A stretch of 62,227 bases of DNA from the IMG/VR virus record IMGVR_UViG_3300011115_000168, positions 1 through 62,227 of that record; one strand, 5' to 3'. The stretch is from a virus. Positions 8,689 through 62,227 of the stretch are shown here, piece after piece. Each line of letters opens with the position of its first letter. Position 1 is the first letter of the stretch. Under the pieces are notes generated by a model. The model worked only from the letters and a program-made list of their open reading frames with translations. It did no database searches and was not told the origin of the DNA. A program made the translations under genes and the position numbers.

Positions 8689-8891
8689 TGGACGATGGTC
8701 GCAAGCTAATCAGCATCATTAACCAACGAATTGACGAAGGCGTCAAACACATCGAAGAATCTCTAGCTGCGAAAGGGGCTAAGAGCTTTGACGATTATTG
8801 CGAGATGTGTGGGGTTATCAAAGGTCTGCTCACCGCTCGCTCTTATCTATCAGACCTTACACACCAACTGGAGAAGTTAGACGATGAATGA
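8685..8891 (+). CDS. Hypothetical 68-aa helical protein
   Basis: Starts at ATGATG overlapping the portal stop, behind AAAGGTGA. Entirely helical and charged (IDEGVKHIEESLAAKG, then FDDYCEMCGVIKGLLTARSY). Small proteins with this 'YxxxxGxIxGL' helix occur next to portal genes in other tailed phages as I remember; their role is not known. Overlaps the co-chaperonin gene by eight bases. Confidence 0.75.
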   Translation: MMDDGRKLISIINQRIDEGVKHIEESLAAKGAKSFDDYCEMCGVIKGLLTARSYLSDLTHQLEKLDDE

Positions 8892-38400: not shown

Positions 38401-41400
38401 GCAACAAGATACTGAAAACCATTGCACAAACTGTGTTTTCAATGGATTTAAAAACACGTATTCAATACAGAGAAACATTGCCCGGCGGTGATTTAGCTAT
38501 ATACGATCCGGTAAAAGACACCATCTACGTTACCGCTGAAGGCATGACAGACCATGTGGTACTGCACGAAATCATCCATGCGGCTACAGTAAAAATCCTT
38601 AACCACTATACAAAAGGTGAACTGAAATACTTAACGTCAGGGCAAATTGAAGCCAGCAAACAACTCATAGACATTATGAATGCCACTAAAAATATAGTGG
38701 CTGGCGACGAAGGCGAAACCATGCGGGAACTACATCCCCGCGCGTATGAAAACATCTTTGAGTTTGTGGCCTATGCGTTGACTGACGAGCAAATGCAAGC
38801 TGACTTGGCTAACCCTGAGTTGATAGCGCAGCAGCAGATAGATCAGACATGGAACCAAGATACGATAGAACTTTCATCCATATTGCCAGAGAAAAGAAGC
38901 GCGTGGTCTGAATTTAAGCTGTCGATGGCAAAGCTGTTGAAGCTGGACAAGTTCCTGTTCGATAAAAAAGGCGAGCTTCGACCCACACAAAGAAAAAACC
39001 TGTTGATGGAAATATCAGCAGCGTTTGAGAGCATCCTTGCGGTTTCAACAGAACCTATCTACTTAGATCAGCTTGCGGCAAGGGGGGCCCAAGAGGCTCC
39101 AAGACAGGCAGCAATGCCGCGCACGGAAGACTCGTACAAGCTACCGAGTGATGTCGCACCCAAGTCTTTCACGCAGCATATTAGAGAGTTGTTCTTGACA
39201 CAGTCGGGGCACTCACGGCTTGAGTACTTCTTCCAGAACAAACGCGCTGTGTTGAGGAAGCTATCCGAGCAGATGGCTAAAGCTGGGGTTATTGTCTATA
39301 CGGGTGACAGGATCAACGACATCTATGGGCAAATCACTACCGCCGTGGCTGATGCCAAAAACTACTTTAATGCGTACGTCGATCAAGACCTAGAGGAACT
39401 TAACACCGCTGTGGGTAAGTATGCTCGTGCTGCAAAGCTGACCACTAAAGAAGCGCTTGAAAAATTGCATCCTCTACTTGAGGCCTTGCATGAGCCTGAG
39501 CGCCGCATGGTTAAGTATTTACTTACCGTACCGCTGACTCCCCAAGCAGATGCGCAACGCGCTGCAATTGTTGACGCGCTTGATACCCAAGTACTGACTG
39601 AGGCACAGGCAAAACAGCTAAGGGCAATGCTTGATGGCATTGTGTTTACAACCGATGCCCAAGGTAACCGTACCATCACTAACAACGTAGATACGCTGGG
39701 GGACAAGTACGACATAAATGCCCCTGAGTACAACGCTACGGGTATGACTAGAGAAGATGTTCAGAAATACACAGACATGCTGCGGGATGATCCGCACAAA
39801 GAAGAGTTTAAGGAAATTGTAGATGCCATGAAAAAACTTGGGGTGTCTACTGCCGAGTTGAACAAGATAGGCCACTATTGGTCACAGCCTGTTAGCAACC
39901 GTGTGGCGTTCTATGGGTGGGAGTATTACGTCCCACTGAAAGGCAACCCCCAACATAGCAAAGTAGATGAGCTACTTGATTTTGATAGCCAAGCAATGGG
40001 GCGTGAACTGCAAGATTCGTCTGGTGCGTTTGGTGGTCGTTTTAGCGTTTCGAAAAACCCCATCCTGCAGATGTCTGTGGATGCAACGCGCGCTGCAATC
40101 CGTGCGGGGCAACGCAACCTCACGCTTGCAATTAAAAACTCACTTGAGAAGAGCAAACTTAACCCTAACGGGCAAGGACTCATAGCAGGCAAAGTAGTAG
40201 ATACCATCCTCTTTAAAGAGCGCACCAACAAAGAAATCCTTGATAAGTACCGTGGCGAAAACCACATCTTCCATTACAACGATGATGGCACTATTGATAT
40301 CTTGCTGGTACAAGACAAAAACTTGCGTAATGCTATTCGGCAGACATTCAAATCAAGCAGCCCGTTGATTGACAAAGCCAACATGATTACCGGCCTGATT
40401 GCCCAAGGGCACACTCGGTACAACTACAACTTTGCCCCAATGAACTTTGTGCGCGATGCGCTGACAAATGCGTTTGTGATTGGCGCAGACATGTCTCCTG
40501 CTAAAGCAGCGCAGTACATCAAGGCAGTTGCTTCTATCGTAGTTAACGGTGGTATGTACAAAGCTATGACGGCGGCTCGATTGCTTCAGAGTGGTCATAA
40601 AGCTGACGTAGCGCGGCTTAAACAGCTAGGTGAAACCGATACGTTCTTTCAGCATATGTATGAGTTGACGGTTGAGCGCGGCGGCATGGTTACCCATCTG
40701 TCTGGCCTGTCTTTGAAGAGCCAATTTCAAGAATTGAAAAAGCAAATTGGCCCCTCTGGAATAATGACTAAGAAGGAGCAGTTTGATAAGTTTGTTGATA
40801 CGTGGACAAACATGTTTGAAATTGCCAGCCGTACCTCTGCATACATGGTCGCTAAGCAAGGCTACCTTGCTGAAAATTTAGCGCGTGGTATGGACGAAGC
40901 AACAGCAACGGAAGAGGCTAAAGCTCGCGCTGTGTCGTTTACTAAGAACCTTGCTAACTTTGAGCAGGTGGGAGAGTGGGGCAAGGCAATGGGTGCGCTC
41001 TACATGTTCTTCCGTCCAGCAGCTACTGGCGCTGCGCGTTCACTTCAATCAATCACTCCTGCGTTCACTAGCTTGCAAAGTGCGGTAGAAGGTCTACCCC
41101 CGTCAATTAAGAACAACCCCACGGCGCTGGCAGAGTTCAAGAAAAACTACGCTACGCATCAGAAGAATGCCAAGATAATGATAATGAGCCTAATAGCTTT
41201 AGGTTTCTTTGCCCACACCATGTCTAAGATGATGGCCCCGGATGATGACTTGGGTCGTAATACCGTAGATGCAGATGACATGGATAGGTGGACTCGTTAT
41301 GCGCGGTTCCACATACCAAACGGAATTTCTAAGCCACTAGGACTTGGAGAAAATGTTGTGTTCCAGATGCCATGGGGTATGGGGCTTGGCGCGTTTGCTG

Positions 41401-42224
41401 CTGCGGGGGCACAGTTGTCTGCCATGTACGATGGCAAAACATCCGTAGGCAAGGGCTTAGCCAACATCTTCGGGTCTATTGCGATGGACTCGTTTGTGCC
41501 TATCCCTGTGTCCAAGATGCCAATCACTGAGATGCCGTTGCAATGGATGCTGGACTCTGTAGCACCCAGCATGGCGCGTCCTGCGCTGGAGTTGGCCCTT
41601 AACAAGAACGGCTTGGGTCAAGCTATCCACAATGAACAGAGCCGTAGGTTTGGCGATGCATACACGGGTGGCGACAACATCCCCGAAATTTACAAAGATG
41701 CAGCAAGAGGCATTGCCAACGCTACGACTGGTGATTTTGACTGGAACCCCAACACACTGTATTTCCTGACCAACACCTACATGGATGGCCCCGCTCGGGT
41801 TATTGAGACTCTGTATGGCATCAATGACTTAGCGCAAGGGCAGAAGGGCTTCAACCCCAAGACTGACATCCCGTTAATGGGTTCGTTCTTTGGCTCCAAA
41901 GTGAACATCGATGCGCAGCAGTTTTCCAAAGTAGAAAATCAAATTAAACGCATCGAAGGCGTTATGAAACAGTTTGCTACCGACCCTGAGCGCGAAGCCC
42001 AGTACATGGAAAAGTATCCGTTCCACGAAGCCGTGGTTGAGTTTTACAACGTAGAACTGAATGGTACTTTGAAGGAACTACGCACAGAAGCTAACGAATA
42101 CCGGCTGGATAAATACCTCTCGGAAAAAGATCGCAAAGAGCTACTGAAGCTAAACACCATGCAAGCCAATATCGTGAAGAACGAGATGATTCAAGTGTTC
42201 AAGTCCTACGGCATCGAACCCTAG
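35475..42224 (+). CDS. Giant internal virion (DNA ejection) protein with HEIIH metallopeptidase motif, 2249 aa
   Basis: The last late gene. Start: MNIQDIRQKYPQYNDLSDKD, a small unit shared by many large phage internal proteins. Residues about 155-190 are Gly/Ala-rich (FAGLGAGVGAVTGFGAGAVP) and may enter membranes. Residues about 400-740 are Ala/Lys/Glu coiled coil. Around 1015-1100 lies a zinc-peptidase unit: DTIYVTAEGMTDHVVLHEII with His1031-Glu1032-x-x-His1035, and Glu1092/Glu1096 as possible third ligand. The C-terminal 700 residues include YNFAPMNFVRDALTNAFVIG and RDALTN-type helices of the 'large polyvalent protein' kind and a membrane segment (MIMSLIALGFFAHTMSKMMA, about 1902-1921). T7 gp16 (about 1300 aa) has a lysozyme-like unit; here a peptidase may take its place. 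Confidence 0.8.
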   Translation: MNIQDIRQKYPQYNDLSDKDLVDGLHGKFYSDIPVNDFYQKVGFQATPVQQGAKVLPDTDTSSDFMRGIKNYPGQFESIVGAGQALTGLAAKKLGFEDTGKSLIQKGLGKIEEGEGRTVSKKSDEFTTAWEKGIGTVLTDWLPYQVGTGAANIAESLAFAGLGAGVGAVTGFGAGAVPGAAAGFVSKTLVKQGIKEAAEKVLKEEGKEAAQAFVENEAKKVIVATAGKEAFEKGATEYAKAGAKKVGSYAGTGVQAGIHGAGEVGGRAIQEGQQRGETIEDIDLGRVLPMATVHAVADFVNDRIGLGALKIGDTASKSLIAEIAKRVGMTGLKETGGEEVQAIAERYGAKLSLTDAEALKEYVNTAAASFAMAVAPGTIGGVRTHLAQQARLQPPTGTEGTQTEAEKKAAAGAPAMTDEEFNKRMEEIKAAKVVEPAKETATTDVPDLKGTTDGTQAAQAQQTETQKQETTSAADVAAQKTESIRTAIDGAIKQGYSPDQAYEELFKNVVDKETLTAAREYADSLKPVVAPEVQAEINRRQAKIDELRENGAADARIKKAEDGLNTYKASVGIEGPVLSAKAKLTPAQEQEAKDTALKDRAEEKTRQADLKESLARSEPRYEQKNIPENAEELYNDTRETVNEKINVDNEKRAELVKQHDELAQQLKAIEAEREALDAKSDEANKQFTTAKNAAARETAKAQEDEFLNQADALAKQEAAINEKLKSAAQSLQDHGVAQNSMPEWYKLTSDEKDLYFGYISRNTLEEHGKAAQALREYRKQKGSREGGYGKKKMSATEHRIALAYEDNREHYSKLFPVKFPRWNDLSDTAKGIFLQKVVQTTVDPITGKTTYKYTGAGLQQDAAFAELGVHLLSEKGGMDKTTRVKAEENFKKIQRRIAEETKLYEERKAKHERDQQRWQQIMGISNEGVPGTSYARPSILPSRVVQMIKSNNLKGVLQYLRFLGEVKTDNKPASFSNKILKTIAQTVFSMDLKTRIQYRETLPGGDLAIYDPVKDTIYVTAEGMTDHVVLHEIIHAATVKILNHYTKGELKYLTSGQIEASKQLIDIMNATKNIVAGDEGETMRELHPRAYENIFEFVAYALTDEQMQADLANPELIAQQQIDQTWNQDTIELSSILPEKRSAWSEFKLSMAKLLKLDKFLFDKKGELRPTQRKNLLMEISAAFESILAVSTEPIYLDQLAARGAQEAPRQAAMPRTEDSYKLPSDVAPKSFTQHIRELFLTQSGHSRLEYFFQNKRAVLRKLSEQMAKAGVIVYTGDRINDIYGQITTAVADAKNYFNAYVDQDLEELNTAVGKYARAAKLTTKEALEKLHPLLEALHEPERRMVKYLLTVPLTPQADAQRAAIVDALDTQVLTEAQAKQLRAMLDGIVFTTDAQGNRTITNNVDTLGDKYDINAPEYNATGMTREDVQKYTDMLRDDPHKEEFKEIVDAMKKLGVSTAELNKIGHYWSQPVSNRVAFYGWEYYVPLKGNPQHSKVDELLDFDSQAMGRELQDSSGAFGGRFSVSKNPILQMSVDATRAAIRAGQRNLTLAIKNSLEKSKLNPNGQGLIAGKVVDTILFKERTNKEILDKYRGENHIFHYNDDGTIDILLVQDKNLRNAIRQTFKSSSPLIDKANMITGLIAQGHTRYNYNFAPMNFVRDALTNAFVIGADMSPAKAAQYIKAVASIVVNGGMYKAMTAARLLQSGHKADVARLKQLGETDTFFQHMYELTVERGGMVTHLSGLSLKSQFQELKKQIGPSGIMTKKEQFDKFVDTWTNMFEIASRTSAYMVAKQGYLAENLARGMDEATATEEAKARAVSFTKNLANFEQVGEWGKAMGALYMFFRPAATGAARSLQSITPAFTSLQSAVEGLPPSIKNNPTALAEFKKNYATHQKNAKIMIMSLIALGFFAHTMSKMMAPDDDLGRNTVDADDMDRWTRYARFHIPNGISKPLGLGENVVFQMPWGMGLGAFAAAGAQLSAMYDGKTSVGKGLANIFGSIAMDSFVPIPVSKMPITEMPLQWMLDSVAPSMARPALELALNKNGLGQAIHNEQSRRFGDAYTGGDNIPEIYKDAARGIANATTGDFDWNPNTLYFLTNTYMDGPARVIETLYGINDLAQGQKGFNPKTDIPLMGSFFGSKVNIDAQQFSKVENQIKRIEGVMKQFATDPEREAQYMEKYPFHEAVVEFYNVELNGTLKELRTEANEYRLDKYLSEKDRKELLKLNTMQANIVKNEMIQVFKSYGIEP

Positions 42225-46588: not shown

Positions 46589-47011
46589 CTAGTTGGAGGG
46601 TTTGCGCACGACAATCGTGAACTCCCTCATTACATTCACTCCGGGAGGTAGCCCATCGGCTTGGTTCTCCTTGAGGAACTCCTTGAAGTTGCCCTGATGA
46701 ATCCGTGCTTCAAACAGGTCAACTGCGCCATTCGACAGGATGAATTTACGGAAGCTGTCTCCGTCATTTACGGTGTAACGCTCGTTCAACTTCCGAATAA
46801 CTGTGCCGTAACTCGTCCGTATGCTCTTCGCGTTACTCTCGTTGCATGTGGACATAAAGGTCTGTTCAAGGAGGCCCAACTCATCATCAAGCTCCTTCAT
46901 TTGGCTCTTCATCTCCGCTTCCATCCTGTCTCGCTCATTACGTATTGTCAAGTATACCTTGACCAATTCATCCAACTTTGTAGTTGCGATTTCATCTTTT
47001 TCTTCAATCAC
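46589..47011 (-). CDS. Coiled-coil replication-cluster protein, 140 aa
   Basis: Residues 5-55 are a long charged helix (LDELVKVYLTIRNERDRMEA, EMKSQMKELDDELGLLEQTF), followed by an alpha/beta part (SYGTVIRKLNERYTVNDGDS, FRKFILSNGAVDLFEARIHQ, GVNVMREFTIVVRKPSN). The layout resembles Gam-like or Gp157-like phage proteins that bind DNA ends, but I cannot confirm a family. ATGA overlap with the SNF2-type helicase suggests a partner of it. Confidence 0.68.
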   Translation of the reverse strand: MIEEKDEIATTKLDELVKVYLTIRNERDRMEAEMKSQMKELDDELGLLEQTFMSTCNESNAKSIRTSYGTVIRKLNERYTVNDGDSFRKFILSNGAVDLFEARIHQGNFKEFLKENQADGLPPGVNVMREFTIVVRKPSN

Positions 47012-48564
47012 AGTCCTATCTCCTGTCTATATAAATCGACTAGTGCCTCATGGGAGTTCACCTTACCTTGCAGCATCTGATAGACCTTGCGTTCAGCTTC
47101 TGAGCCTTGCAGGTGAACCACAGTCATGCTGTTCACTTGCCCCACTCGGTCTATCCGCGCAACGCATTGCAGGTAGGTCTCGACGCTCATAACGGGAGAC
47201 CAAAAGACAACGGTGTCTGCGGCAGTAAGGGTGACGCCATGCGAGGCAGCTTGTGGTTGTATAACCAAGACCCGTGGGTCTGTCGCGGTCTGAAATCGAT
47301 TGATGATGTCAGCGCGTGTTCTTGCGGGAACGTCTCCGTTAATTACTTCATTAGTGACTCCTTCTTTAGTTAGATGGCGTGAAACAAGATCGATCGTGTG
47401 CCGAAACGGGACAAAAATAATCACCTTTTGCTCAGTTTCTTCTAGCACTTCCATCAAAGCATTGAGGCGCGGGGCTATGTCGAACTCCACCACCTCATGC
47501 GTATCGGTGTAGATTGCTCCACCCGAAATCTGTAGCAGCTTGCTCAACTGAGCCGCCGCATTGACTGCGCTGATCTGCTCTCCCGCAGCCTCAATCAGCA
47601 TCTGACTCTTTAGCTGCTGGTAGTACTTCAAGACCATCGGGGACAGCGGCACTTCGCGTGTCTGATACACCAGCGGTGGCAAGTCCAAGCACTGCGCTTT
47701 CTCAAACCGGATGGCGGGCTGCAAGCAGTCGAACACTAGCTGCTTGGCGTAGGACTTGGGTATCCACTTGAAGCGCGTAATCTGCTGCATCACCTTGTCG
47801 CGCCATGCTGTGAAGTACTTGGGTACGCCGTTGGGGTTGACTAGCTTAGCAAGGCCGAACGCATCCAGTGGAGACTGTGAGGCAGGTGTGCCTGTCATCA
47901 TCCATAGTCGTGTCGAGGGGGTGATTAGCTTCGCCAAGGTACGCCAGCGCTTAGTAGTCACCGTTTTATATGCGTTGGCCTCGTCAATCACAATCAGGTC
48001 AAACCCTGCCTTGGCTATCTCAGGGGAGACTGTGTTCACCCCGTCGTAGTTGATGATGACGAACTCGTAGCTGCCCTTGACTATCTTGGCTCGTTTTGCT
48101 GCATCGCCATAAGCCACGCCCACAGTGCGGTGCATCGCTGTTTTAAATATATCTGCTTGCCATGCGGAGTACATGATGGACAGTGGGCAGATGATGAGAA
48201 CGCGCTTCACTTGCCCTATCTGCATGAGGTAGTCAACGGCCCAAATGACTGAGGATGTCTTACCCGTGCCAGCTTCGTTGAAGCAGAAGCAACGGTCACG
48301 TAGCGCTAGGAATGATGCAGTAGTTTCTTGATGCTTGAACGGCGTATACAAGCCAGGCCATGTGTACTCTTTGCTCATCGGGTTGGGTGCATCCCCGTAG
48401 ATTTTGACCAAGCGTTGCATCTCGGTCAGCCCCCAGTAGACTAGGACTTCTGCATCTGTCCCGTCGTCCTTCAGCACTTCACACTTGTCTATGAATCCTA
48501 CGATGTGTTTCAAATCGGAGGACGGCACTTTGAGATGCACTGCCGTGTCTTCAACTACAACCAT
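47008..48564 (-). CDS. SNF2-type superfamily 2 helicase, 518 aa
   Basis: Motif I FNEAGTGKTSSVIWAV (Lys102-Thr103), motif Ia RVLIICPLSIMYSAW, motif II LIVIDEANAY (DEAN 194-197), motif III WMMTGTPASQSPLDAFGL, motif IV VIIFVPFRHTIDL, motif V VLVIQPQAASHGVTLT, motif VI YLQCVARIDRVGQ. This is the full SF2/SNF2 set, so a DNA translocase or remodelling helicase rather than a fork helicase. N-terminal ~70 residues are phage-specific. Common in phages of this size; it may help replication restart or recombination. Confidence 0.92.
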   Translation of the reverse strand: MVVVEDTAVHLKVPSSDLKHIVGFIDKCEVLKDDGTDAEVLVYWGLTEMQRLVKIYGDAPNPMSKEYTWPGLYTPFKHQETTASFLALRDRCFCFNEAGTGKTSSVIWAVDYLMQIGQVKRVLIICPLSIMYSAWQADIFKTAMHRTVGVAYGDAAKRAKIVKGSYEFVIINYDGVNTVSPEIAKAGFDLIVIDEANAYKTVTTKRWRTLAKLITPSTRLWMMTGTPASQSPLDAFGLAKLVNPNGVPKYFTAWRDKVMQQITRFKWIPKSYAKQLVFDCLQPAIRFEKAQCLDLPPLVYQTREVPLSPMVLKYYQQLKSQMLIEAAGEQISAVNAAAQLSKLLQISGGAIYTDTHEVVEFDIAPRLNALMEVLEETEQKVIIFVPFRHTIDLVSRHLTKEGVTNEVINGDVPARTRADIINRFQTATDPRVLVIQPQAASHGVTLTAADTVVFWSPVMSVETYLQCVARIDRVGQVNSMTVVHLQGSEAERKVYQMLQGKVNSHEALVDLYRQEIGL

Positions 48565-51591: not shown

Positions 51592-53457
51592 TTAACACTC
51601 TCCGTAGCTGTTTGCATGCTTTGCTTCGCAAGCCACGGGTAAACCCCTAGCCCAATCGGGAGGCACAGACATGCACTCGACGATGTATGCCATGGCGCTA
51701 TCTAATTCCTCCTCAGGAACCACGCACACCGCCGCGTCATGGACTGTCAGCGCCACGCGATAGCGTTGATTTATCTTGAGCATCTGCTCCCCTACGACGA
51801 TGCGCGCCAAGGCTTGCACCACGTTCTCAACCAGTGCGCCGCCCCATATGGAGACCTTACCCTTGCGTGAGGTGTATGCGTAGCCTGACTTCGGCCCTGT
51901 GGTGTCCAGCTTTAAGTCGGGGTAGCGGATGTACAGGCCATTGGGCAGTTGGATGCCCTCCTTAACAACCTTGAGGCACTTGTGTTCGCCGTATGTGTAG
52001 GGTTCTGTGTCGCCCCAGTTGGCTAAATCTTTCAATACCGCATCGCCATCCTTCCATAACTGTATAACTTTGTCGTTAGTCTTGCGGTAAATATCAACAT
52101 AGTTATTTGCTTCGTCTTCCGTAACCGTGATCCCGGGTGGCGTAGTCTTCAGCGTGTGCTGTAGTTTTAATTTCCCAGTGCCATAACCGAGGCCGAGGAT
52201 GCAAGTCTTGCCCACAAAACGCTCGATAGGGTTGGCTTTGGAAATGGGGCGGTCATATATCTTGGATGCAAACACCGAGTACACATCCTCACCATCGGCA
52301 AACTGCTTCACCACATCGTCCTGACCAGCCAGCCACACAAGCACCCTTGCCTCAATCTGAGAAGAGTCACAGTTGATGACCACATGACCATCGGGCGGAA
52401 TGACTGCGTTCTTCAACGCCTTCTTCTTTTTATCCCTTGATGGAAGGTTTTGGAAGTTCACCTTGTCGGAGCCAGCCCACCGACCTGTGTGTGCGCCGTA
52501 GTACTTCAAGGGGATGGGTAGATACCCTTTGTTGCGCTTGCCTACATCTATGAATCTTTCAATCCGTGACTCTTCAATGGTGGACTTCGTACCAAGGCGC
52601 ACAGCACATAGCTGTTGAACGAACGGCTCTTCATGCTCCATCAACTCTAGGAATCCTTCGTCGTTCTTAGCCAACGCATAAGTCTCCTTGCCTGTGGTCT
52701 TGCTAATTTTCATGGGGACTTTGACTTTGCGCTCAGCTAGTGCTTGTGCAAACTGCTTGTTGCTTGCCAGCTTCTTACGAACGCCCTCAGCATCGCTGCA
52801 ATTGAGCCCACCCATCAGGTCTTCCAACAAGTAACGCTTATCTTTTTCCAATTCGATAGCGCGGTCTTGCAGCAACGCATCGTCAACCATGAACACCGGA
52901 TGCGTAAACATCCTCAGCGTCATATCGATAAGGCCCAACTCATCGTCAGGGAACGCGCTCGACAAACCTAGCCATAACTTGTAAGTTAACTCAACGTCGT
53001 TGATACAGTAGTCGCCGTATGTAGCGAGTTCTTCTTTGGTGAAGTCCTCTCTGCGCTTGCCCTCAGCTTTGAGCACCTCATCGCCTTTTTTGCCGATGCC
53101 ATAGCGCGCACTAAGTGATGCCAGTGACCCACCTACATCCACGCCGTGAAGTGCCCGCGCCATGCAAAGTGTGTCGAGCATGAACATAGGGTTGACCCCA
53201 AAGTGCCAGCTAAGGATGCAACCATCGAACAAGGTGTTGTGGCACAGCAGGGCATTAGTGTCCCACGGGAGGGTGGACAGATAGTTATGAATCTCACTCT
53301 TAGTCCCTGAGAACCAAGTAGCCGGTGCATCGTCTATCTTCACGCCCACGCCTATCACTTCAAAGCGTCTGTCCCGTACATACTCCTCGGTGGTCTGAGT
53401 CTTGAACCCCAACCCCTTGGTGTAGTAGGTCTCAAAATCAAGCGTGATGATGCTCAT
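51592..53457 (-). CDS. DNA polymerase, family A, with 3'-5' exonuclease
   Basis: 621 residues. Proofreading domain: Asp7-x-Glu9 (TLDFETYY), Asp78 (HNTLFDG), Asp154 (YCINDVELT). Polymerase domain: motif A INCDSSQIEARVLVWLAG (Asp364; usual form DYSQIELR), O-helix Arg413-x3-Lys417-x3-Leu421-x3-Tyr425-Gly426, motif C VHDAA (His573-Asp574-Ala575). At the site of E. coli Phe762 there is Leu421, and the Glu883-equivalent is Ala. Both catalytic Asp remain, so it should be active. No 5'-3' nuclease domain, as in T7-like phage polymerases. It is the replicase of the phage. Confidence 0.96.
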   Translation of the reverse strand: MSIITLDFETYYTKGLGFKTQTTEEYVRDRRFEVIGVGVKIDDAPATWFSGTKSEIHNYLSTLPWDTNALLCHNTLFDGCILSWHFGVNPMFMLDTLCMARALHGVDVGGSLASLSARYGIGKKGDEVLKAEGKRREDFTKEELATYGDYCINDVELTYKLWLGLSSAFPDDELGLIDMTLRMFTHPVFMVDDALLQDRAIELEKDKRYLLEDLMGGLNCSDAEGVRKKLASNKQFAQALAERKVKVPMKISKTTGKETYALAKNDEGFLELMEHEEPFVQQLCAVRLGTKSTIEESRIERFIDVGKRNKGYLPIPLKYYGAHTGRWAGSDKVNFQNLPSRDKKKKALKNAVIPPDGHVVINCDSSQIEARVLVWLAGQDDVVKQFADGEDVYSVFASKIYDRPISKANPIERFVGKTCILGLGYGTGKLKLQHTLKTTPPGITVTEDEANNYVDIYRKTNDKVIQLWKDGDAVLKDLANWGDTEPYTYGEHKCLKVVKEGIQLPNGLYIRYPDLKLDTTGPKSGYAYTSRKGKVSIWGGALVENVVQALARIVVGEQMLKINQRYRVALTVHDAAVCVVPEEELDSAMAYIVECMSVPPDWARGLPVACEAKHANSYGEC

Positions 53458-54768: not shown

Positions 54769-54961
54769 GTGCCTTCTCCTTCTTTAGATGGCGTTTTACT
54801 GAAACGATGCCAGCGGATTCTGACCTCGCTGTCAACATAGAGTCTGCTAGCTGATACGCGCGGCGTGGTATGTCCTCGTCATAAACTCCTTTCATCAAAA
54901 GACCCACCATTGCAAGCCCCGCATGGACTTCTCGCAGTTGCTCTAAATCTTGTTCATTCAT
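54755..54961 (-). CDS. Small helical protein with ADSMLTAR motif, 68 aa
   Basis: MNEQDLEQLREVHAGLAMVG, then LLMKGVYDEDIPRRAYQLAD and SMLTARSESAGIVSVKRHLK. The A-Y-x-L-A-D-S-M-L-x-A-R segment matches the tail motif of the protein at 51128 and, loosely, at 50937. Overlaps neighbours on both sides (14 and 4 bases). Function unknown. Confidence 0.78.
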   Translation of the reverse strand: MNEQDLEQLREVHAGLAMVGLLMKGVYDEDIPRRAYQLADSMLTARSESAGIVSVKRHLKKEKAHDSN

Positions 54962-55263
54962 TCGGTTCCCTTTGTAAAAAACGCAGACATCAATTCGCGC
55001 AAGTCACCGACATTGTGTTCATCAACCACGAACGCAATGCCATGGTTTTTACGGATGTCCTCTAAGTTTTTCTCTTGTAACGCTGTGGTCTTGCCACCAT
55101 TCGCTTTGCACTCAAGACCAATGAATCGCCCGCGATAGCAAACAAGGAAGTCAGGCACACCGCTACTGCCATATCCACCTGTAGCGGGCATGGCGTAGTA
55201 CGCACCCAACTCCTTGAGTACCTTCTTAACTTTGTCCTTAACCTTGCGCTCGGGCGTTAGCAT
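54958..55263 (-). CDS. VRR-NUC nuclease, 101 aa
   Basis: Residues 29-63 (GGYGSSGVPDFLVCYRGRFI, GLECKANGGKTTALQ) carry the VRR-NUC/PD-(D/E)XK site: Gly-x-Pro-Asp38, Glu51-x-Lys53, and Gln63. Phage VRR-NUC proteins are structure-specific nucleases, often regarded as Holliday-junction resolvase-like. It would resolve branched DNA before packaging. All key residues present. ATGA-type overlaps with neighbours. Confidence 0.92.
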   Translation of the reverse strand: MLTPERKVKDKVKKVLKELGAYYAMPATGGYGSSGVPDFLVCYRGRFIGLECKANGGKTTALQEKNLEDIRKNHGIAFVVDEHNVGDLRELMSAFFTKGTE

Positions 55264-56505: not shown

Positions 56506-57480
56506 TCATACTCCATGTCCGTATTGTTTAACTTCAGTGCCATCAACCATCAACGTGTAGCCCCACACGCTAGGCGGGTACACCTTGCCCATCTCATAGG
56601 TAACAGTCTTGAATGTGCTTGCGTTCTCCTTGTAGATTTGATGGCACAACTTAGCCTTCATCGAATCAAACACCGCAACCCCATCCTTGTGGTGATGCCA
56701 TGACGATGGGTTTCTAATCCTCCATCTGAAGTCACGGTCTAGGCCAAACGCATAGAGAGCCATCGCATCAAGTGGCGCGGAAGACTTCATTGCCTCAGCA
56801 AGCATTAAGATTTCATCAGGTAATTTATGTTCTATCTCATTCTCAAGATAGATAGTCTTAGCTGTGTCCAACCATGATTCAAGAGTCATCGCCTTGCACA
56901 TGGTCTCAGTTACTGTAAAGAAGTCTTTGTGGTTAGCCATCAGATTTCTAGACGCTTTCCTGTTGACATGCTTACCGATGATGGTGATGTCCTTCGTAGG
57001 CTTCATGGTCTTGATGTCCACCCGCATCCCGTGGTGTATGGGATAGAACTTACGCCCTCCCTTAAACACCATCCCACCCCGCCGTGAGTCGTTATGGAAG
57101 TACCCGTAACTCACATCGCTAAGAAACTGCCGCGCACCTTGGGGGTAGCTACTTGATGTGAACTCAAAGGTGTTGTCCGAACGCACAACGCCCATCTCAT
57201 GGGGCTTGTGAACCCACAGATAGTTTTGCCCGTTGGACGAGTCATAGTAAATATTCTTACCCTGATTCGTGAACTCAGCGGCTTCCTCAAGCGTGATGGG
57301 TAGTTGGGAGTAAGTCCATCCATACATAACTCTGAAGATGGTCTCGCCGTTCTCCTCCTCAGCTAAGAAGTACTTAGTGTTCTGTCGGCGACCCATGGTC
57401 GGGAACCGATTGGTGCTGCCCCGATATGGCTTCTCGGACAGGCTGATTCGTTTCAGTCGCGCATAACTTAGCTGTATCAT
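56506..57480 (-). CDS. Hypothetical early protein, 324 aa
   Basis: Start at 57480 (MIQLSYARLKRISLSEKPYR) is chosen for CGAAAGGAAGCAAG. Sequence has strands and helices without a motif I know: TKYFLAEEENGETIFRVMYG, KFYPIHHGMRVDIKTMKPTK, and an end VYPPSVWGYTLMVDGTEVKQ. Another feature is the many aromatic residues and a HHH cluster (WHHHKDGVAVF). It may be a phage-specific enzyme or binding protein. Starts inside the 3' end of the gene at 57374-57709. Confidence 0.75.
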   Translation of the reverse strand: MIQLSYARLKRISLSEKPYRGSTNRFPTMGRRQNTKYFLAEEENGETIFRVMYGWTYSQLPITLEEAAEFTNQGKNIYYDSSNGQNYLWVHKPHEMGVVRSDNTFEFTSSSYPQGARQFLSDVSYGYFHNDSRRGGMVFKGGRKFYPIHHGMRVDIKTMKPTKDITIIGKHVNRKASRNLMANHKDFFTVTETMCKAMTLESWLDTAKTIYLENEIEHKLPDEILMLAEAMKSSAPLDAMALYAFGLDRDFRWRIRNPSSWHHHKDGVAVFDSMKAKLCHQIYKENASTFKTVTYEMGKVYPPSVWGYTLMVDGTEVKQYGHGV

Positions 57481-57709
57481 CTTGCTTCCTTTCGTTAATA
57501 ATTTCATCTAGCGTTGTCAACACATCGCGCCACAGGCGTGCTGAATGTGTTTGGTCACGGGACTCCAACGCATCTAGGGCATGCATGTGGGCAAAGGCTC
57601 CGTATCGGTGTAGCAACTCCTCAGCCACCTGACGCGAGAACCTCATCCTTGATTGGGGGTGCGCCTCCCATACAACGTCCCCTCCTGCTATTGAAATCCT
57701 AATCGTCAT
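57374..57709 (-). CDS. Hypothetical 111-aa protein, long overlap with next gene
   Basis: ATG at 57709 overlaps the stop of the VWA gene (11 bases). MTIRISIAGGDVVWEAHPQS, RMRFSRQVAEELLHRYGAFA, then helices and a polar tail (NQPVREAISGQHQSVPDHGS, PTEH). The last 35 residues lie in another frame of the gene starting at 57480, an unusually long overlap of 107 bases; the tail may be unselected. Function unknown. Confidence 0.68.
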   Translation of the reverse strand: MTIRISIAGGDVVWEAHPQSRMRFSRQVAEELLHRYGAFAHMHALDALESRDQTHSARLWRDVLTTLDEIINERKQDDTAKLCATETNQPVREAISGQHQSVPDHGSPTEH

Positions 57710-59003
57710 AGCTGACCATGACTTTCTTGCCCAATGGAGGGTTGAACGATTTGCATTGGGTCACCATCCACAGGGTTGGGCTGAAGATGTTCCACTTCAC
57801 GTTGTCCTCGACATACCCGTCTGTGAACACAATCACGCAGTCCGCGCTGAGGCGTTCCTTGTTTATGTACTCACTGACACATGAGACGTTAGTTCCACCG
57901 CCGCCTTCGGGCTTGAGCATGGATGCAATGCCGGTGTAGTCACCGGAAAACTCCTGCGTCCCCGCCACTTCAGCGTCCCACCAAATGATGGTCACCTTCT
58001 CAGGTGAAGCCACCTCGCAAATTGAGACCAGTTCTGTAGCAAACTCGTTCAACTCCTTCTCGCCTATTGAGCCAGAAGTATCAATAGCCACGATAACCCC
58101 GCCGATAGTCTCGTTGTCCATGCTTGGCAGATAGATGTCATTAGCCATGTGACGCTTGTTCATGCGCCGCCATGTGTACTCGTCCTTACCACGCACCGAT
58201 GCAGACACGAACTCGCGCAACTCATCGCGCCAATCTACCTTGGGCTCCAACATGTCGGAGATGGCTCGGGGCATCTTGCCACCCATGCGCCCTGCAAGGA
58301 TGCCGCCTTCGCGCAATGCTCTATCAATCTCCTCGTTCAAGTCCTTGCGTTCCTCATGGGACAGCTTGCTGATGTCGATGATGTCGTGCTCATCTGCGTT
58401 AGACAAGTCATAGGTCTTGCCGTTAACAGTCACCGATTCCCATTCATCTTGACTATCACCCTCACCATTTTGCGTCCCACCTTGGGATGGGTCGTTACCT
58501 TGCCCACCGCCTGACCCGCCCTGCCCCTTACCCTTGCACTTAGGCTTCGCGTGTTTCTTCAGATAGTTGTACACCTCACGCATCGACCAATCGTGGAACA
58601 TGGGGTCATAAACACCCCCATCCGGCAACTCGACCAAGCGTTCGTGTGAGTTATTAACTGTCCCATCGATACAGGTGATGATGTCGTTCACCACAAAGTC
58701 AGCGGCAAGGTTTGCCATCTGACGGTTCTCCTTGAACATGGGTACACCGAAGATGGTCTGCTTGAGGGCAATGTGTAGGTTCTCGTGAAGTACCAACCCA
58801 CGCAGTTGTGGTTCCTTAGTTATCTGCTCAATGAACTTGCGCCCGTACCGCTTGTTCACCCCATCGGTGTATGCGGTAGGACAGTTGTCAATGACCGCAC
58901 TCGTACCCATCAGCATCACGCCCGAGTAGAGCGCAGTCTGTGGGTGCTTGAACATGGTCATGTGAGCCCGCTTGATGCGGGCGGTCTGTGCGTCTCGTAA
59001 CAT
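57699..59003 (-). CDS. VWA / metallopeptidase-like protein (MoxR partner), 434 aa
   Basis: N-terminal zinc-site-like part: LRGLVLHENLHIALKQTIFG gives His73-Glu74-x-x-His77. A Gly/Lys-rich linker (about 155-185) follows, then acidic helices. The VWA domain (about 300-434) has VIVAIDTSGSIGEKELNE (Asp308-x-Ser310-x-Ser312), Thr371 (GGGGTNVSC) and CVIVFTDGYVED (Asp395): a complete MIDAS metal site. This matches the DUF2201-type pairing of a metallopeptidase-like part with a VWA-like part that goes with MoxR-type ATPases, as found at 59238-60374. The pair probably remodels or cuts a protein target. Its stop overlaps the next gene. Confidence 0.88.
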   Translation of the reverse strand: MLRDAQTARIKRAHMTMFKHPQTALYSGVMLMGTSAVIDNCPTAYTDGVNKRYGRKFIEQITKEPQLRGLVLHENLHIALKQTIFGVPMFKENRQMANLAADFVVNDIITCIDGTVNNSHERLVELPDGGVYDPMFHDWSMREVYNYLKKHAKPKCKGKGQGGSGGGQGNDPSQGGTQNGEGDSQDEWESVTVNGKTYDLSNADEHDIIDISKLSHEERKDLNEEIDRALREGGILAGRMGGKMPRAISDMLEPKVDWRDELREFVSASVRGKDEYTWRRMNKRHMANDIYLPSMDNETIGGVIVAIDTSGSIGEKELNEFATELVSICEVASPEKVTIIWWDAEVAGTQEFSGDYTGIASMLKPEGGGGTNVSCVSEYINKERLSADCVIVFTDGYVEDNVKWNIFSPTLWMVTQCKSFNPPLGKKVMVSYDD

Positions 59004-59191
59004 TATTTAATCTCCTCAAAGATAAAAGCCTTGCCATCGTCCACAAGTCGGACTTCCTTCTTGTAGAGCCTACGCAGATGATGGATAGTCATGTAACTAA
59101 ACATCCGCAACTCCTCACACACCTTGACCCATAGCATCGTCATCACGATTGCCCACGCGCCAAGGAACATCTCAGCCATACTGAACTCCAT
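59003..59191 (-). CDS. Small membrane protein between AAA and VWA genes, 62 aa
   Basis: MEFSMAEMFLGAWAIVMTML then WVKVCEELRMFSYMTIHHLR and RLYKKEVRLVDDGKAFIFEE. One membrane helix (about residues 8-24) and a basic cytoplasmic part. Strong AGGAGG before the start. Its stop shares a base with the VWA gene's start, so the two are coupled; it could anchor the VWA/AAA machine to the membrane. Placed after a terminator (59203-59231). Confidence 0.75.
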   Translation of the reverse strand: MEFSMAEMFLGAWAIVMTMLWVKVCEELRMFSYMTIHHLRRLYKKEVRLVDDGKAFIFEEIK

Positions 59192-59202
59192 AGAACCTCC
59201 TG

Positions 59203-59231
59203 AAAAAATAGAACCCCACCCATCGGTGGGG
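59203..59231 (-). terminator. Terminator / attenuator inside the AAA-VWA operon
   Basis: CCCCACC-GATG-GGTGGGG then TTCTATTTTTT on the minus strand: a perfect seven-base-pair stem with a T-rich end, six bases after the ATPase stop. The stem and its flank resemble the leader hairpin at 1375-1390 (same GATG loop). It would lower expression of the membrane and VWA genes relative to the ATPase. Confidence 0.8.
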
Positions 59232-59237
59232 AGTTAG

Positions 59238-60374
59238 TTAGAACAAGTCGTGATTGTTCTTAGCCCACTCAGCGATCTTGAGATTGTTCCGCGCCAACTT
59301 CACGGACTTGGCTGTCCGCATCATCATGGTGAAGAACACACCTTGAATCTCGTTGGACGGAATGCGCTCAACATACTCCATGAACTTAGACAGTTGGTCT
59401 TGCGTCTCCAACACATCTACTGCTTGAAACATAATCATCAACTGCGCGCTGATGTCCTTAGCCACCTCGATGGTTGACGGCGCTTTGATGATGTCTTTCA
59501 CATCGGTTAAGGATTTCTCCAACGCCATGAACGCCGCCATGTCGCCCGCCGCGCTGTGACCAATCGTGCCTGACAACGCAGCTTGCGTACCATGCTCACC
59601 AATCGCATCACGGTAACGCACGATGACATCGCACTTCGCCAATGAGCGCGGAGACACAAAGGACAACGCGCTCTTGTTGGGTTGAAAGATATATGGATTA
59701 TCTTTCTGTGCATCGCCTTCTTTGTACGATGCCAAGCTCCGTGGGAACATAGCAACGAACGCACGAACCACGCGAGAGATGCCGTTCTCAGTCGCCCACT
59801 CAAGCCACTCGTTCGGGGTCGGCTTTGCCATCTGCAAGATACACACACGATTGCCCGCATGAGAAAGCATCGAGTCACCTACGCCATCGCTTGCATTGTT
59901 AGATGTTGCAATGACAATGGACTTCCGCTTGTTCTTCAAGTCCTCAGGCAGAGGCACATCGCCCACCATACGCTCAAGCATGAGTCGCGTAAAGATGATT
60001 TGCAAAAGCTTGGGTGCTTTCATAAACTCATCAAGCATGATGACCTTAGGCTTACCATTGTGGATGTCGAACAGGCTCGACACGTAATACTCCAACTGCT
60101 GAGTCGCATGGTTGGGGATGGTCATGCCGATGTCCGACATGTCCTTGACGGGGCAATCAACATAGATGTAGTCGTACTTGTCGCCTTCGATGGATGTGCC
60201 ATCGCGCGGTGAACGCCAGCTATCCCCGTTATCCATGGCAATCATAGACAACAGCGAGGTCTTGCCACAACCGGGCTCACTTTGCACGACTACAGTTAGT
60301 TCCTCACCGATGAGTGGGATGATTTTCCGCAATTCCTTGATGGACACGGTTTGGGTGAAACTGATTTTGGACAT
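59238..60374 (-). CDS. MoxR-type AAA+ ATPase, 378 aa
   Basis: Walker A VVVQSEPGCGKTSLLS (Gly35-Cys-Gly-Lys38-Thr39), Walker B KVIMLDEFMKAP (Asp115-Glu116), sensor 1 SIVIATSNN (Asn159), and an Arg-rich section around residue 180-200. The overall order, size and the VWA partner downstream fit the MoxR branch of AAA+ proteins. MoxR ATPases, together with VWA proteins, act as chaperones in assembling or activating target complexes. In the window it starts the module after the 60449-61384 gene. AAAGAAAG stands for the ribosome-binding site. Confidence 0.88.
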   Translation of the reverse strand: MSKISFTQTVSIKELRKIIPLIGEELTVVVQSEPGCGKTSLLSMIAMDNGDSWRSPRDGTSIEGDKYDYIYVDCPVKDMSDIGMTIPNHATQQLEYYVSSLFDIHNGKPKVIMLDEFMKAPKLLQIIFTRLMLERMVGDVPLPEDLKNKRKSIVIATSNNASDGVGDSMLSHAGNRVCILQMAKPTPNEWLEWATENGISRVVRAFVAMFPRSLASYKEGDAQKDNPYIFQPNKSALSFVSPRSLAKCDVIVRYRDAIGEHGTQAALSGTIGHSAAGDMAAFMALEKSLTDVKDIIKAPSTIEVAKDISAQLMIMFQAVDVLETQDQLSKFMEYVERIPSNEIQGVFFTMMMRTAKSVKLARNNLKIAEWAKNNHDLF

Positions 60375-60408
60375 GATATAAACTTTCTTTAACTATGGTT
60401 GAACTGAT

Positions 60409-60434
60409 GGCATTAGTACTTAATGCCGTTTTTG
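60409..60434 (+). terminator. Hairpin with a T-tract on the plus strand, upstream of the ATPase gene
   Basis: GGCATTA-GTACT-TAATGCC followed by GTTTTT on the plus strand. The genes here run the other way, so it could stop antisense transcripts, act as a stem in the minus-strand leader of the ATPase, or be an operator. No plus-strand gene ends nearby. Confidence 0.4.
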
Positions 60435-60448
60435 ACTACTTGCTTTAC

Positions 60449-61384
60449 CTATACGCATTGAAACGCACCGAACTTCGAGAGAATGCTGTCCACATCCCCC
60501 TTCACATTCGCGCGCACAGCGTCACTATCGCGGATTAACTCCGCATCCACGCCCGTGAGGGCAACTTCCAATGAGGCGCGGGCTTCCTCCAATTCCGCAT
60601 TGCCTGTCAGGTTGAACTGCTTAAACGACTCGCACATCTCCTTTGCCTTTTGGATAGTGCTGTCATAAATCTTGCGCTTCTTAACCTTGGTCTCCCCTGT
60701 GTTGTCATCCACACCCATGTCCTCCACGCCACAGCAATGGCTGATGGATTTCATAACCTCAATGAACCTTGATTGCTGCTCCACCATAACGTGGGACACT
60801 ATCTGCTCCGCTTGCTTGCTGTATGTGGTGAACAAATCCTCAGCGATGTCAGACGCAATCCCGCAACGCCAATCACTCATCGGCACTTCGGACACGAACA
60901 GCTTGATGTCGAACCGATGCTCCAACTGCTCCTTGGGCGGGTAGTCTGTGCGATTGAACATGTCGCCCATGCCCGCTGCATTGAACGCCATGTTGGACAC
61001 GATGCCATCGTAGTCAGCGAGAAACTCGGCCTTCAGCAAAGCAAATTGCGTCTCATGCTCGTGGTACTCCTTCATAAAGACGGGCATGTCCACAGAGGGC
61101 AGGAGATGGTTGCCCTTATTCCACGGGTACGTCCTACGCTGAAGCCAGTTATATACTGTCTGCCGATAGTTCGCCAAGGCTTTGTGCTTGGGATGGTCTG
61201 CCAACAGATGCTTAACATACCGGCCAGCGTTCTTACTAGCATGCTTTGCCGTAGTAACTTCATTACTGATAACTCTGTCCTGCTTGGTAGCTGACCACAC
61301 ATTGATGTCTACGCACACAAGCACAGCCGATGATGCAAGGCTGATGAGGTGCTGAGGCTTTTGCAATTCCATTTGATTCTCCAT
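60449..61384 (-). CDS. Unknown 311-aa protein upstream of the MoxR ATPase (DUF3150-like)
   Basis: Begins MENQMELQKPQHLISLASSA, then VLVCVDINVWSATKQDRVIS, a polar helix (AKHASKNAGRYVKHLLADHP), QTVYNWLQRRTYPWNKGNHL, and long amphipathic helices (KEYHEHETQFALLKAEFLAD, then KIYDSTIQKAKEMCESFKQF). The start and helix pattern are like proteins that precede MoxR ATPases in other phages; I think of DUF3150, but cannot confirm. Since it is first in the operon and coupled to AAA/VWA, it may be the substrate adaptor or target. Its leader has the hairpin at 61397-61410 and promoter at 61456-61484. Confidence 0.75.
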   Translation of the reverse strand: MENQMELQKPQHLISLASSAVLVCVDINVWSATKQDRVISNEVTTAKHASKNAGRYVKHLLADHPKHKALANYRQTVYNWLQRRTYPWNKGNHLLPSVDMPVFMKEYHEHETQFALLKAEFLADYDGIVSNMAFNAAGMGDMFNRTDYPPKEQLEHRFDIKLFVSEVPMSDWRCGIASDIAEDLFTTYSKQAEQIVSHVMVEQQSRFIEVMKSISHCCGVEDMGVDDNTGETKVKKRKIYDSTIQKAKEMCESFKQFNLTGNAELEEARASLEVALTGVDAELIRDSDAVRANVKGDVDSILSKFGAFQCV

Positions 61385-61396
61385 TCGTTTAACAAA

Positions 61397-61410
61397 CCAC
61401 GTTACCGTGG
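61397..61410 (-). promoter_or_regulatory. Leader hairpin CCACG-GTAA-CGTGG
   Basis: A five-base-pair stem with a GTAA loop (a GNRA-type cap in RNA), 46 bases downstream of the -10 of the promoter at 61456-61484 and 13 bases before the start of the 311-aa gene. It is the third member of the CCACG/CGTGG hairpin set. Confidence 0.6.
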
Positions 61411-61455
61411 GACACTAAGTCGGGCCGCGCTAAGGATGCTTTCCGACTTGCTTTG

Positions 61456-61484
61456 AGTATAACACAACTTGACCTTTGAGTCAA
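61456..61484 (-). promoter_or_regulatory. Strong leftward sigma70-type promoter of the AAA-VWA operon
   Basis: TTGACT (61484-61479), 17 bases, TATACT (61461-61456): five of six matches in each box. As at 1438-1466, the -35 box is half of TTGAC-N6-GTCAA (TTGAC-TCAAAG-GTCAA), and AGCC precedes it in both. One regulator may therefore control both early promoters. Confidence 0.85.
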
Positions 61485-61949: not shown

Positions 61950-62142
61950 ACTTGTTCAAGCCTTTCAAAAGGGTTAGGTCAGTCACTAGGATGTAGTTGG
62001 ACTTCGCCATGGGTACGATGGTGCGGGTAGGCGCAATCTCCTGCTCAGCACATGGCATACACATCTTGTATCCAAGAGCCCACCTTGCGGTGGGATACTG
62101 TTCATCGCACTTGCGGCAATGGGGTTTGTGGTCAGTCATCAT
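61936..62142 (-). CDS. Zinc-ribbon mini-protein, 68 aa
   Basis: Tandem ATG at 62142/62139 behind GGAGAACA; an upstream in-frame ATG near the window end lacks a site and overlaps another gene. MMTDHKPHCRKCDEQYPTAR, ALGYKMCMPCAEQEIAPTRT: Cys9-x2-Cys12 and Cys32-x2-Cys35 make a four-cysteine zinc ribbon, then a strand-rich tail (NYILVTDLTLLKGLNKYASQ). Its 5' end is repeated at 1-42. May be a DNA- or protein-binding adaptor; function unknown. Confidence 0.82.
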   Translation of the reverse strand: MMTDHKPHCRKCDEQYPTARWALGYKMCMPCAEQEIAPTRTIVPMAKSNYILVTDLTLLKGLNKYASQ

Positions 62143-62227
62143 TGTTCTCCTTTGGGCGAACACCCGCCCAAGCGTTTGCTGTTTGCTGCGCCATCTCGCG
62201 CAAGGTGTCATACTGCTTCCATGCCGC
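62101..62227. repeat. Right copy of the 127-base terminal repeat
   Basis: Identical to 1-127. See the left copy. Confidence 0.97.
62132..62227 (-). CDS. 3' fragment of the 59-aa gene (whole copy at 32-211)
   Basis: Thirty-one C-terminal codons and stop of the gene described at 32-211, cut by the window edge. Not a separate gene. Confidence 0.9.
   Translation of the reverse strand, partial: AAWKQYDTLREMAQQTANAWAGVRPKENNDD

Follow-up and report, generated by a model that had tools for sequence, protein, structure and literature searches.

A DUF3150-superfamily protein linked to a MoxR-like ATPase and a metallopeptidase-VWA protein in phages and conjugative plasmids

Described MoxR/VWA systems and the locus

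Pairs of a MoxR ATPase and a VWA protein have been described in phages, in an archaeal virus and in cells. In phage N4, gp24 and gp25 are core genes of unknown function expressed as middle transcripts, and the pair is core in all 25 N4-like phages compared (PMC4193335). Iyer et al. 2021 reported a pair of MoxR and metallopeptidase-vWA proteins in jumbo phages and proposed a role in virion assembly with peptidolytic processing, drawing on an analogy with p618/p892 of Acidianus two-tailed virus (ATV) (PMC7824862). The MoxR ATPase p618 of ATV is a virion protein and binds both p892, the VWA protein, and tail proteins (PMC4124505), and PMC7824862 describes the ATV system as being without a peptidase domain. 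In NorQD, the VWA protein plugs the MoxR hexamer and holds the target through its metal ion-dependent adhesion site (MIDAS), and hydrolysis of ATP causes a twist of the partner and remodelling of the target (PMC9976466, PMC13036017). Here we describe a related module in the IMG/VR virus record IMGVR_UViG_3300011115_000168, the full 62,227 bases of which are referred to as the window. All elements of the module are read on the minus strand, and the genes for the ATPase and the peptidase-VWA protein are accompanied by a gene for a third protein, which we assign to the DUF3150 superfamily.

The pair itself is already known, and the statement in the first-pass annotation of this DNA that it was undescribed in phages is contradicted by the reports on N4 gp24/gp25 (PMC4193335) and on jumbo phages (Iyer et al. 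2021, PMC7824862). What seems to be new here is DUF3150 as the third partner. A literature search whose coverage did not extend to subscription papers found no paper on DUF3150 and only incidental mentions of DUF2201, the family of the peptidase-VWA protein. Within the literature searchable in this way, there seems to be no earlier description of the three-part unit or of its distribution over phages and plasmids. N4 gp24/gp25 and their Schitoviridae homologues resemble the window locus in combining a phrog_1297 ATPase with a phrog_1314 peptidase-VWA protein that has identical catalytic and MIDAS residues, and in having the two genes adjacent and ahead of replication genes. They differ from it in sequence (25–27% identity), and N4 and Vibrio phage PG11 have neither a DUF3150 partner nor a transmembrane (TM) protein within the pair. 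The jumbo-phage pair has the same domain design and was assigned a chaperone role earlier. However, the passage on the pair in PMC7824862 places that role in virion assembly and makes no mention of DUF3150, whereas the window locus is early and replication-linked.

NorQ/NorD, CbbQ/CbbO and RavA/ViaA also consist of a MoxR ring and a MIDAS-bearing VWA cofactor, and the VWA domain of NorD is a structural match to that of the window protein. We know of no HExxH domain on the NorD, CbbO or ViaA cofactors. The targets of these three systems are metabolic enzymes. The VMAP ternary MoxR-vWA conflict systems resemble the window locus in having a MoxR protein, a vWA protein and a third protein (Kaur et al. 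2020, PMC7159879). There, the third protein is VMAP with effector domains, whereas DUF3150 constitutes a separate family, and the Pfam matches of the module and its flanking proteins include neither VMAP nor an effector domain.

Three linked genes and their products

The DUF3150, ATPase and VWA genes follow each other in this order on one strand in 47/47 phage loci in which 2.6 kb or more precede the VWA gene, these loci being drawn from 64 related viral loci. Part of this linkage is plain vertical inheritance in one phage group. Independent evidence for the linkage comes from plasmids, phage MinM2 and bacterial contigs, in which the gene orders differ. The trio is also found on conjugative plasmids (Cupriavidus pRK1-1, Simplicispira, Burkholderia), in MinM2 and on several bacterial contigs, and the DUF3150 and VWA genes are adjacent in all 15 Burkholderiales plasmids compared. 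In the plasmid trio, the ATPase gene lies upstream of these two, giving the order ATPase-DUF3150-VWA, with no TM protein seen between them; on pRK1-1 the trio is located near PRTRC and SbcCD-like genes. MinM2 has the same order as pRK1-1, with small genes interspersed, and loci L070 and L073 have the order ATPase-VWA-DUF3150. On a quickly built tree of 38 VWA proteins with some long branches, where absence of DUF3150 was judged within the DNA stretches examined, its presence requires seven changes, at least four of which are forced by the starred branches. This suggests that DUF3150 was gained and lost repeatedly beside the same engine. The nearest non-viral relatives are L069, from a beta-proteobacterium bin (36%), and L070, from a Bacillota bin (32%); both may be phage contigs in metagenome-assembled genomes. 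Inspection of the neighbours of bacterial loci with the pair only revealed no role. A connection with SXT/R391 integrative elements may also exist.

The DUF3150 gene had been described in the first-pass annotation as encoding a 311-aa (amino acid) protein of unknown function. The open reading frame (ORF) is present, but its start is probably at 61372, since the first four codons of the reading from 61384 contain a GGAGA ribosome-binding site and relatives begin with MELQ. Directly compared, the protein scored 17.0 bits against Pfam DUF3150 (PF11348), under the cut-off of 24.9, and this profile gave weak matches in six out of 20 phage family members. A profile of 20 phage homologues matched a protein on a Tannerella contig (1e-23), which is encoded beside ATPase and VWA genes and itself scores over the Pfam DUF3150 cut-off (36 bits). 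The same profile matched further proteins, likewise encoded beside ATPase and VWA genes, in contigs of Bacillota, Armatimonadota, Pseudovibrio, Draconibacterium and Desulfobacteraceae. An extended profile, made from the phage homologues and the bacterial-contig proteins, the Tannerella row included, matched plasmid proteins (4e-50 and 4e-79), among them one with the annotation DUF3150, and the DUF3150 protein of MinM2 at 1e-50. The predicted structure is made of long helices (predicted local distance difference test score, pLDDT, 81; predicted template modelling score, pTM, 0.48). Its top match in a structure search of viral proteins is a DUF3150 protein of an uncultured phage (E=1e-17), and a fold search of the PDB with the model gave no match (best E=0.4). 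Judging from this chain of profiles and the structure match, the 307-aa protein is a member of the DUF3150 superfamily, and the earlier label can be replaced. Phage G gp569, which is similar in size and encoded between the ATPase and VWA genes, was also considered as a DUF3150 candidate and rejected as a generic coiled coil with no match.

The ATPase has Walker A (SEPGCGKT, K38), Walker B (D115/E116) and sensor-1 (N159) residues that are invariant in 24 sequences from very distant phages, in agreement with the earlier reading of these sites as intact. R176 and R243 are equally invariant and fit the arginine finger and sensor 2 positions. When its profile was compared with solved structures, midasin came first (5e-19), followed by Clp and other AAA+ proteins, with the MoxR protein 2r44 at 2e-5. 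Phage homologues carry the MoxR annotation. These structure-profile matches and annotations suggest that the ATPase groups with the MoxR clade.

The peptidase-VWA protein matches Pfam DUF2201_N (92.6 bits, cut-off 23.2, E=4e-26) and DUF2201 (62.1 bits, cut-off 26.4, E=7e-17) as well as phrog_1314 (E=6e-77). Its closest matches in named phages include gp25 of N4 (NC_008720; 25% identity, E=2e-18), and 690 phage records were matched. The union of an HExxH site and a full VWA MIDAS in one protein, already pointed out from the sequence, is borne out by conservation: H73, E74 and H77 of the HENLH motif at position 73, N98 and D102, and the MIDAS residues D308, S310, S312, T371 and D395 are invariant in the same 26 sequences from very distant phages, among which are N4 gp25 and phage G gp576. 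In the AlphaFold model (mean pLDDT 81), the VWA domain matches BatB, Ro60, midasin (MIDAS) and NorD. Bacterial homologues L075, L079 and L082 have HAVMH, HLVMH and HTVMH, respectively, keeping both histidines and losing the catalytic glutamate; no such loss was found among the phage members seen. Catalysis has probably been lost in these three MoxR/VWA cofactors, and in cells the peptidase domain may therefore sometimes be a binding fold only. Members of the phrog_1314 family are labelled 'HNH endonuclease' in PHROG and in many RefSeq phage records. Domain searches of the window protein and N4 gp25 detected no HNH domain, only DUF2201_N and DUF2201/VWA, so that this label looks wrong.

The fourth gene encodes a small protein with a borderline hydropathy (Kyte-Doolittle maximum 1.53). 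Its stop codon overlaps the start of the VWA gene (TAATG), which suggests translational coupling of the two genes. A hand count found a single-TM ORF of 61–82 aa (longer in one open reading) between the ATPase and VWA genes in 33 of the 58 relatives; in the others, the gap contains no ORF or an unrelated soluble ORF of 59–64 aa. Judged from this distribution, the membrane protein is an accessory and not the constant part it had been taken for, and of the four genes proposed to be co-conserved only the set of three is kept in all 47 loci. Between the TM and VWA genes, an extra ORF of 123 or 65 aa is present in L001 (9636–10007), L002 (9636–10007) and L003 (2424–2621), and the gap appears to be a small insertion spot in close relatives.

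Transcription signals and genomic context

Every minus-strand element named in the first-pass annotation is present where it had been placed or nearby (Table 1). The promoter upstream of the DUF3150 gene is the top-scoring site in a 20-kb region and is kept in most relatives with little change in its distance from the gene; far relatives have the perfect consensus TTGACA-17-TATAAT at this position. Chance sites do not explain it, since the 20-kb region contains fewer promoter-like sites than its shuffles. The dyad TTGAC-N6-GTCAA occurs in three copies in the window versus 0.07 expected, and 0/100 shuffles reached three. In relatives, the half-site in the promoter spacer is conserved and the centre is variable. 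The promoter and its operator-like repeat are thus real and conserved. The second early promoter lies about 2.2 kb upstream of the module promoter across the joined genome ends, and the third dyad copy (8731–8746) is away from both promoters. Relatives contain the same two promoter/dyad sites at similar spacing, e.g. at 4970 and 7152 in L001. The two dyad-bearing promoters likely constitute a two-promoter early regulon with a putative regulator. Conservation of promoter and dyad, together with the three-gene linkage, supports the earlier proposal of a MoxR/VWA remodelling machine organized as a single transcription unit.

The hairpin following the ATPase gene had been interpreted as an attenuator. 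A stem and a T-run are indeed present in the window, and the stem shows covariation (0.210 observed versus 0.092 in shuffles; 0/500 as high). However, most relatives keep the stem and lack the T-run, and termination was rejected as the conserved role of the hairpin. Hairpins of the form CCCACG-loop-CGTGG recur at 61397–61411, 59214–59231, 2057–2071 and 1376–1390, near the starts or ends of minus-strand genes, and are often preceded by a TTAG-like flank. It is possible that they represent an RNA-processing or stability element.

Given its direct terminal repeat, the record probably represents an entire genome, circular or permuted; a megablast search against phages found no close isolate. Genes for an endonuclease, a nucleotide-kinase-like protein, DNA polymerase, an exonuclease, a helicase and a primase/helicase lie downstream of the module on the same strand, and the plus strand, opposite to the module, carries the terminase, portal, capsid and tail genes. 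The trio heads the early replication operon. The phrog_93 endonuclease adjoins the module even in far relatives. In PG11, DNA polymerase comes one gene after the pair and is itself followed by primase, in CRP-7 the DNA polymerase gene is 3.6 kb downstream of the pair, and in MinM2 a primase/twinkle gene comes after the trio. Genes near the trio on plasmid pRK1-1 include those for a DNA repair exonuclease and for an ATPase of double-strand-break repair. Two ORFs downstream of the module, 57374–57709 (111 aa) and 56506–57507 (333 aa), are conserved and share about 134 bases, read in different frames; the latter may have an alternative start at 57480, with a better ribosome-binding site upstream. 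In the structural region, a plus-strand ORF of 2249 aa (35475–42224) has no PHROG match, and neither have the adjoining ORFs of 951 and 778 aa.

Table 1. Features of the module and selected context in the window
Feature	Position	Strand	Remarks
Direct terminal repeat, 127 bases	1–127 and 62101–62227
Second early promoter, TTGACA-17-TACAAT	1438–1466	−	Overlaps dyad copy at 1451–1466
DNA helicase	47008–48564	−	phrog_62, E=2e-102; context
DNA polymerase	51592–53457	−	phrog_17, E=1e-82; downstream of module, same strand
Endonuclease	54958–55263	−	phrog_93; context
DUF2201 metallopeptidase-VWA protein, 434 aa	57699–59003	−	N4 gp25 relative
Single-TM protein, 62 aa	59003–59191	−	One hydrophobic segment
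Intergenic hairpin after ATPase gene	59214–59231	−	Perfect stem and T-run in window; terminator scan
MoxR/midasin-like AAA+ ATPase, 378 aa	59238–60374	−	phrog_1297, E=9e-48; N4 gp24 family
DUF3150-superfamily protein, 307 aa from 61372 (311 aa from 61384)	60449–61372	−	Third partner
Leader hairpin, CCACG-GTAA-CGTGG	61397–61411	−	Upstream of DUF3150 gene; similar hairpins in relatives' leaders
Sigma-70-type promoter, TTGACT-17-TATACT	61456–61484	−	Predicted from sequence
Operator-like dyad, TTGAC-N6-GTCAA	61469–61484		Overlaps −35 box

Possible targets of the machine

In the explanation that we favour, with confidence and doubt in about equal measure, the module is an ATP-driven remodelling or processing machine that acts early on a nucleic-acid-handling or host complex, and not on virions. 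Host RNA polymerase would transcribe it early, using the dyad-controlled promoter with which the replication operon begins. The MoxR-like ATPase, like others of its family, would form a ring on which, by analogy with NorQD and CbbQ/CbbO, the peptidase-VWA protein would dock, its MIDAS metal site gripping the target. Remodelling would expose a segment of the target, and the HExxH domain, with its intact zincin-type site, would clip the target or a bound partner. The constant linkage of DUF3150 is consistent with an adaptor or substrate-selecting subunit, or with a partner that is itself processed, and the small single-TM protein may hold the machine at the inner membrane in this clade. The target would be either a host complex to be converted or removed or the element's own replication or recombination proteins. 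Given its early timing, its strand and its presence on plasmids, the module is more likely to act on replication, recombination or early host complexes than on virions. Several observations weigh against this explanation. N4, phage G, RaK2, CRP-7, Phosso and PG11 have the pair with no DUF3150 match, meaning that DUF3150 is not needed everywhere. Some N4-like roseophages have virion-protein genes near gp24/gp25 (PMC4193335). Guilt by neighbourhood is weak, as phage early operons hold many unrelated genes, and protein cleavage is not universal, given the loss of the catalytic glutamate in some bacterial homologues.

Among the roles raised in the first-pass annotation, an early or replication-linked one is favoured by the position of the module and by the plasmids, virion maturation is disfavoured, and inactivation of host defence lacks a PADLOC match. 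A chaperone-protease for virion assembly or maturation, with assembly of structural proteins by the MoxR/VWA pair and trimming by the peptidase, is what PMC7824862 proposes for jumbo phages; ATV p618/p892, for which this was shown in part (PMC4124505), and the second structural module near gp24/gp25 in roseophage RPP1 (PMC4193335) point in the same direction. We nevertheless regard this role as unlikely here. The module has an early host-type promoter and stands in a replication operon read in the opposite direction from the structural genes, and the trio is found on conjugative plasmids that make no virions, which together disfavour a virion-only role; gp24/gp25 are middle genes in N4 (PMC4193335), and the absence of a peptidase domain from the ATV system, as described in PMC7824862, weakens the analogy. 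Early expression and plasmid occurrence would also suit a machine of counter-defence or host takeover that, soon after infection begins, unfolds or cleaves a defence or regulatory protein of the host, since phages and plasmids face the same host barriers; the peptidase site is intact and a membrane-tethered variant would suit membrane-bound targets. PADLOC, which covers defence and not counter-defence, gave no match to any module component, and the presence of the pair in the core of 25/25 N4-like phages is more in keeping with a housekeeping step than with an optional anti-defence gene; we consider this role rather unlikely. Metal insertion is a frequent role of MoxR/VWA pairs, e.g. NorQD, and a chelatase or cofactor machine like CobS/CobT or NorQ/NorD might activate a metalloenzyme such as nucleotide reductase. 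This appears highly improbable, as no CobT, CobS or chelatase family is present among the Pfam and NCBIfam matches, the HExxH domain is foreign to the CobS/CobT and NorQ/NorD systems, and no candidate metalloenzyme is linked to the module across lineages.

The early remodelling or processing machine can be extended to a broader proposal, which we put forward tentatively and with considerably more doubt than trust. DUF3150-MoxR-DUF2201 might be a distinct class of ATP-dependent proteases found across mobile elements, whose VWA cofactor bears the peptidase and whose substrate is chosen by DUF3150. Soon after entry, phages and conjugative plasmids alike would use it to process a shared host or replication target, and in some phages it would be membrane-tethered.

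The ATPase/peptidase-VWA pair is found in hundreds of phage records and is core in all N4-like phages compared. As a recurring third partner on phages and plasmids, DUF3150 points to a concrete putative complex and argues against a virion-only role. N4 in laboratory Escherichia coli offers a direct route to the function of the core pair.

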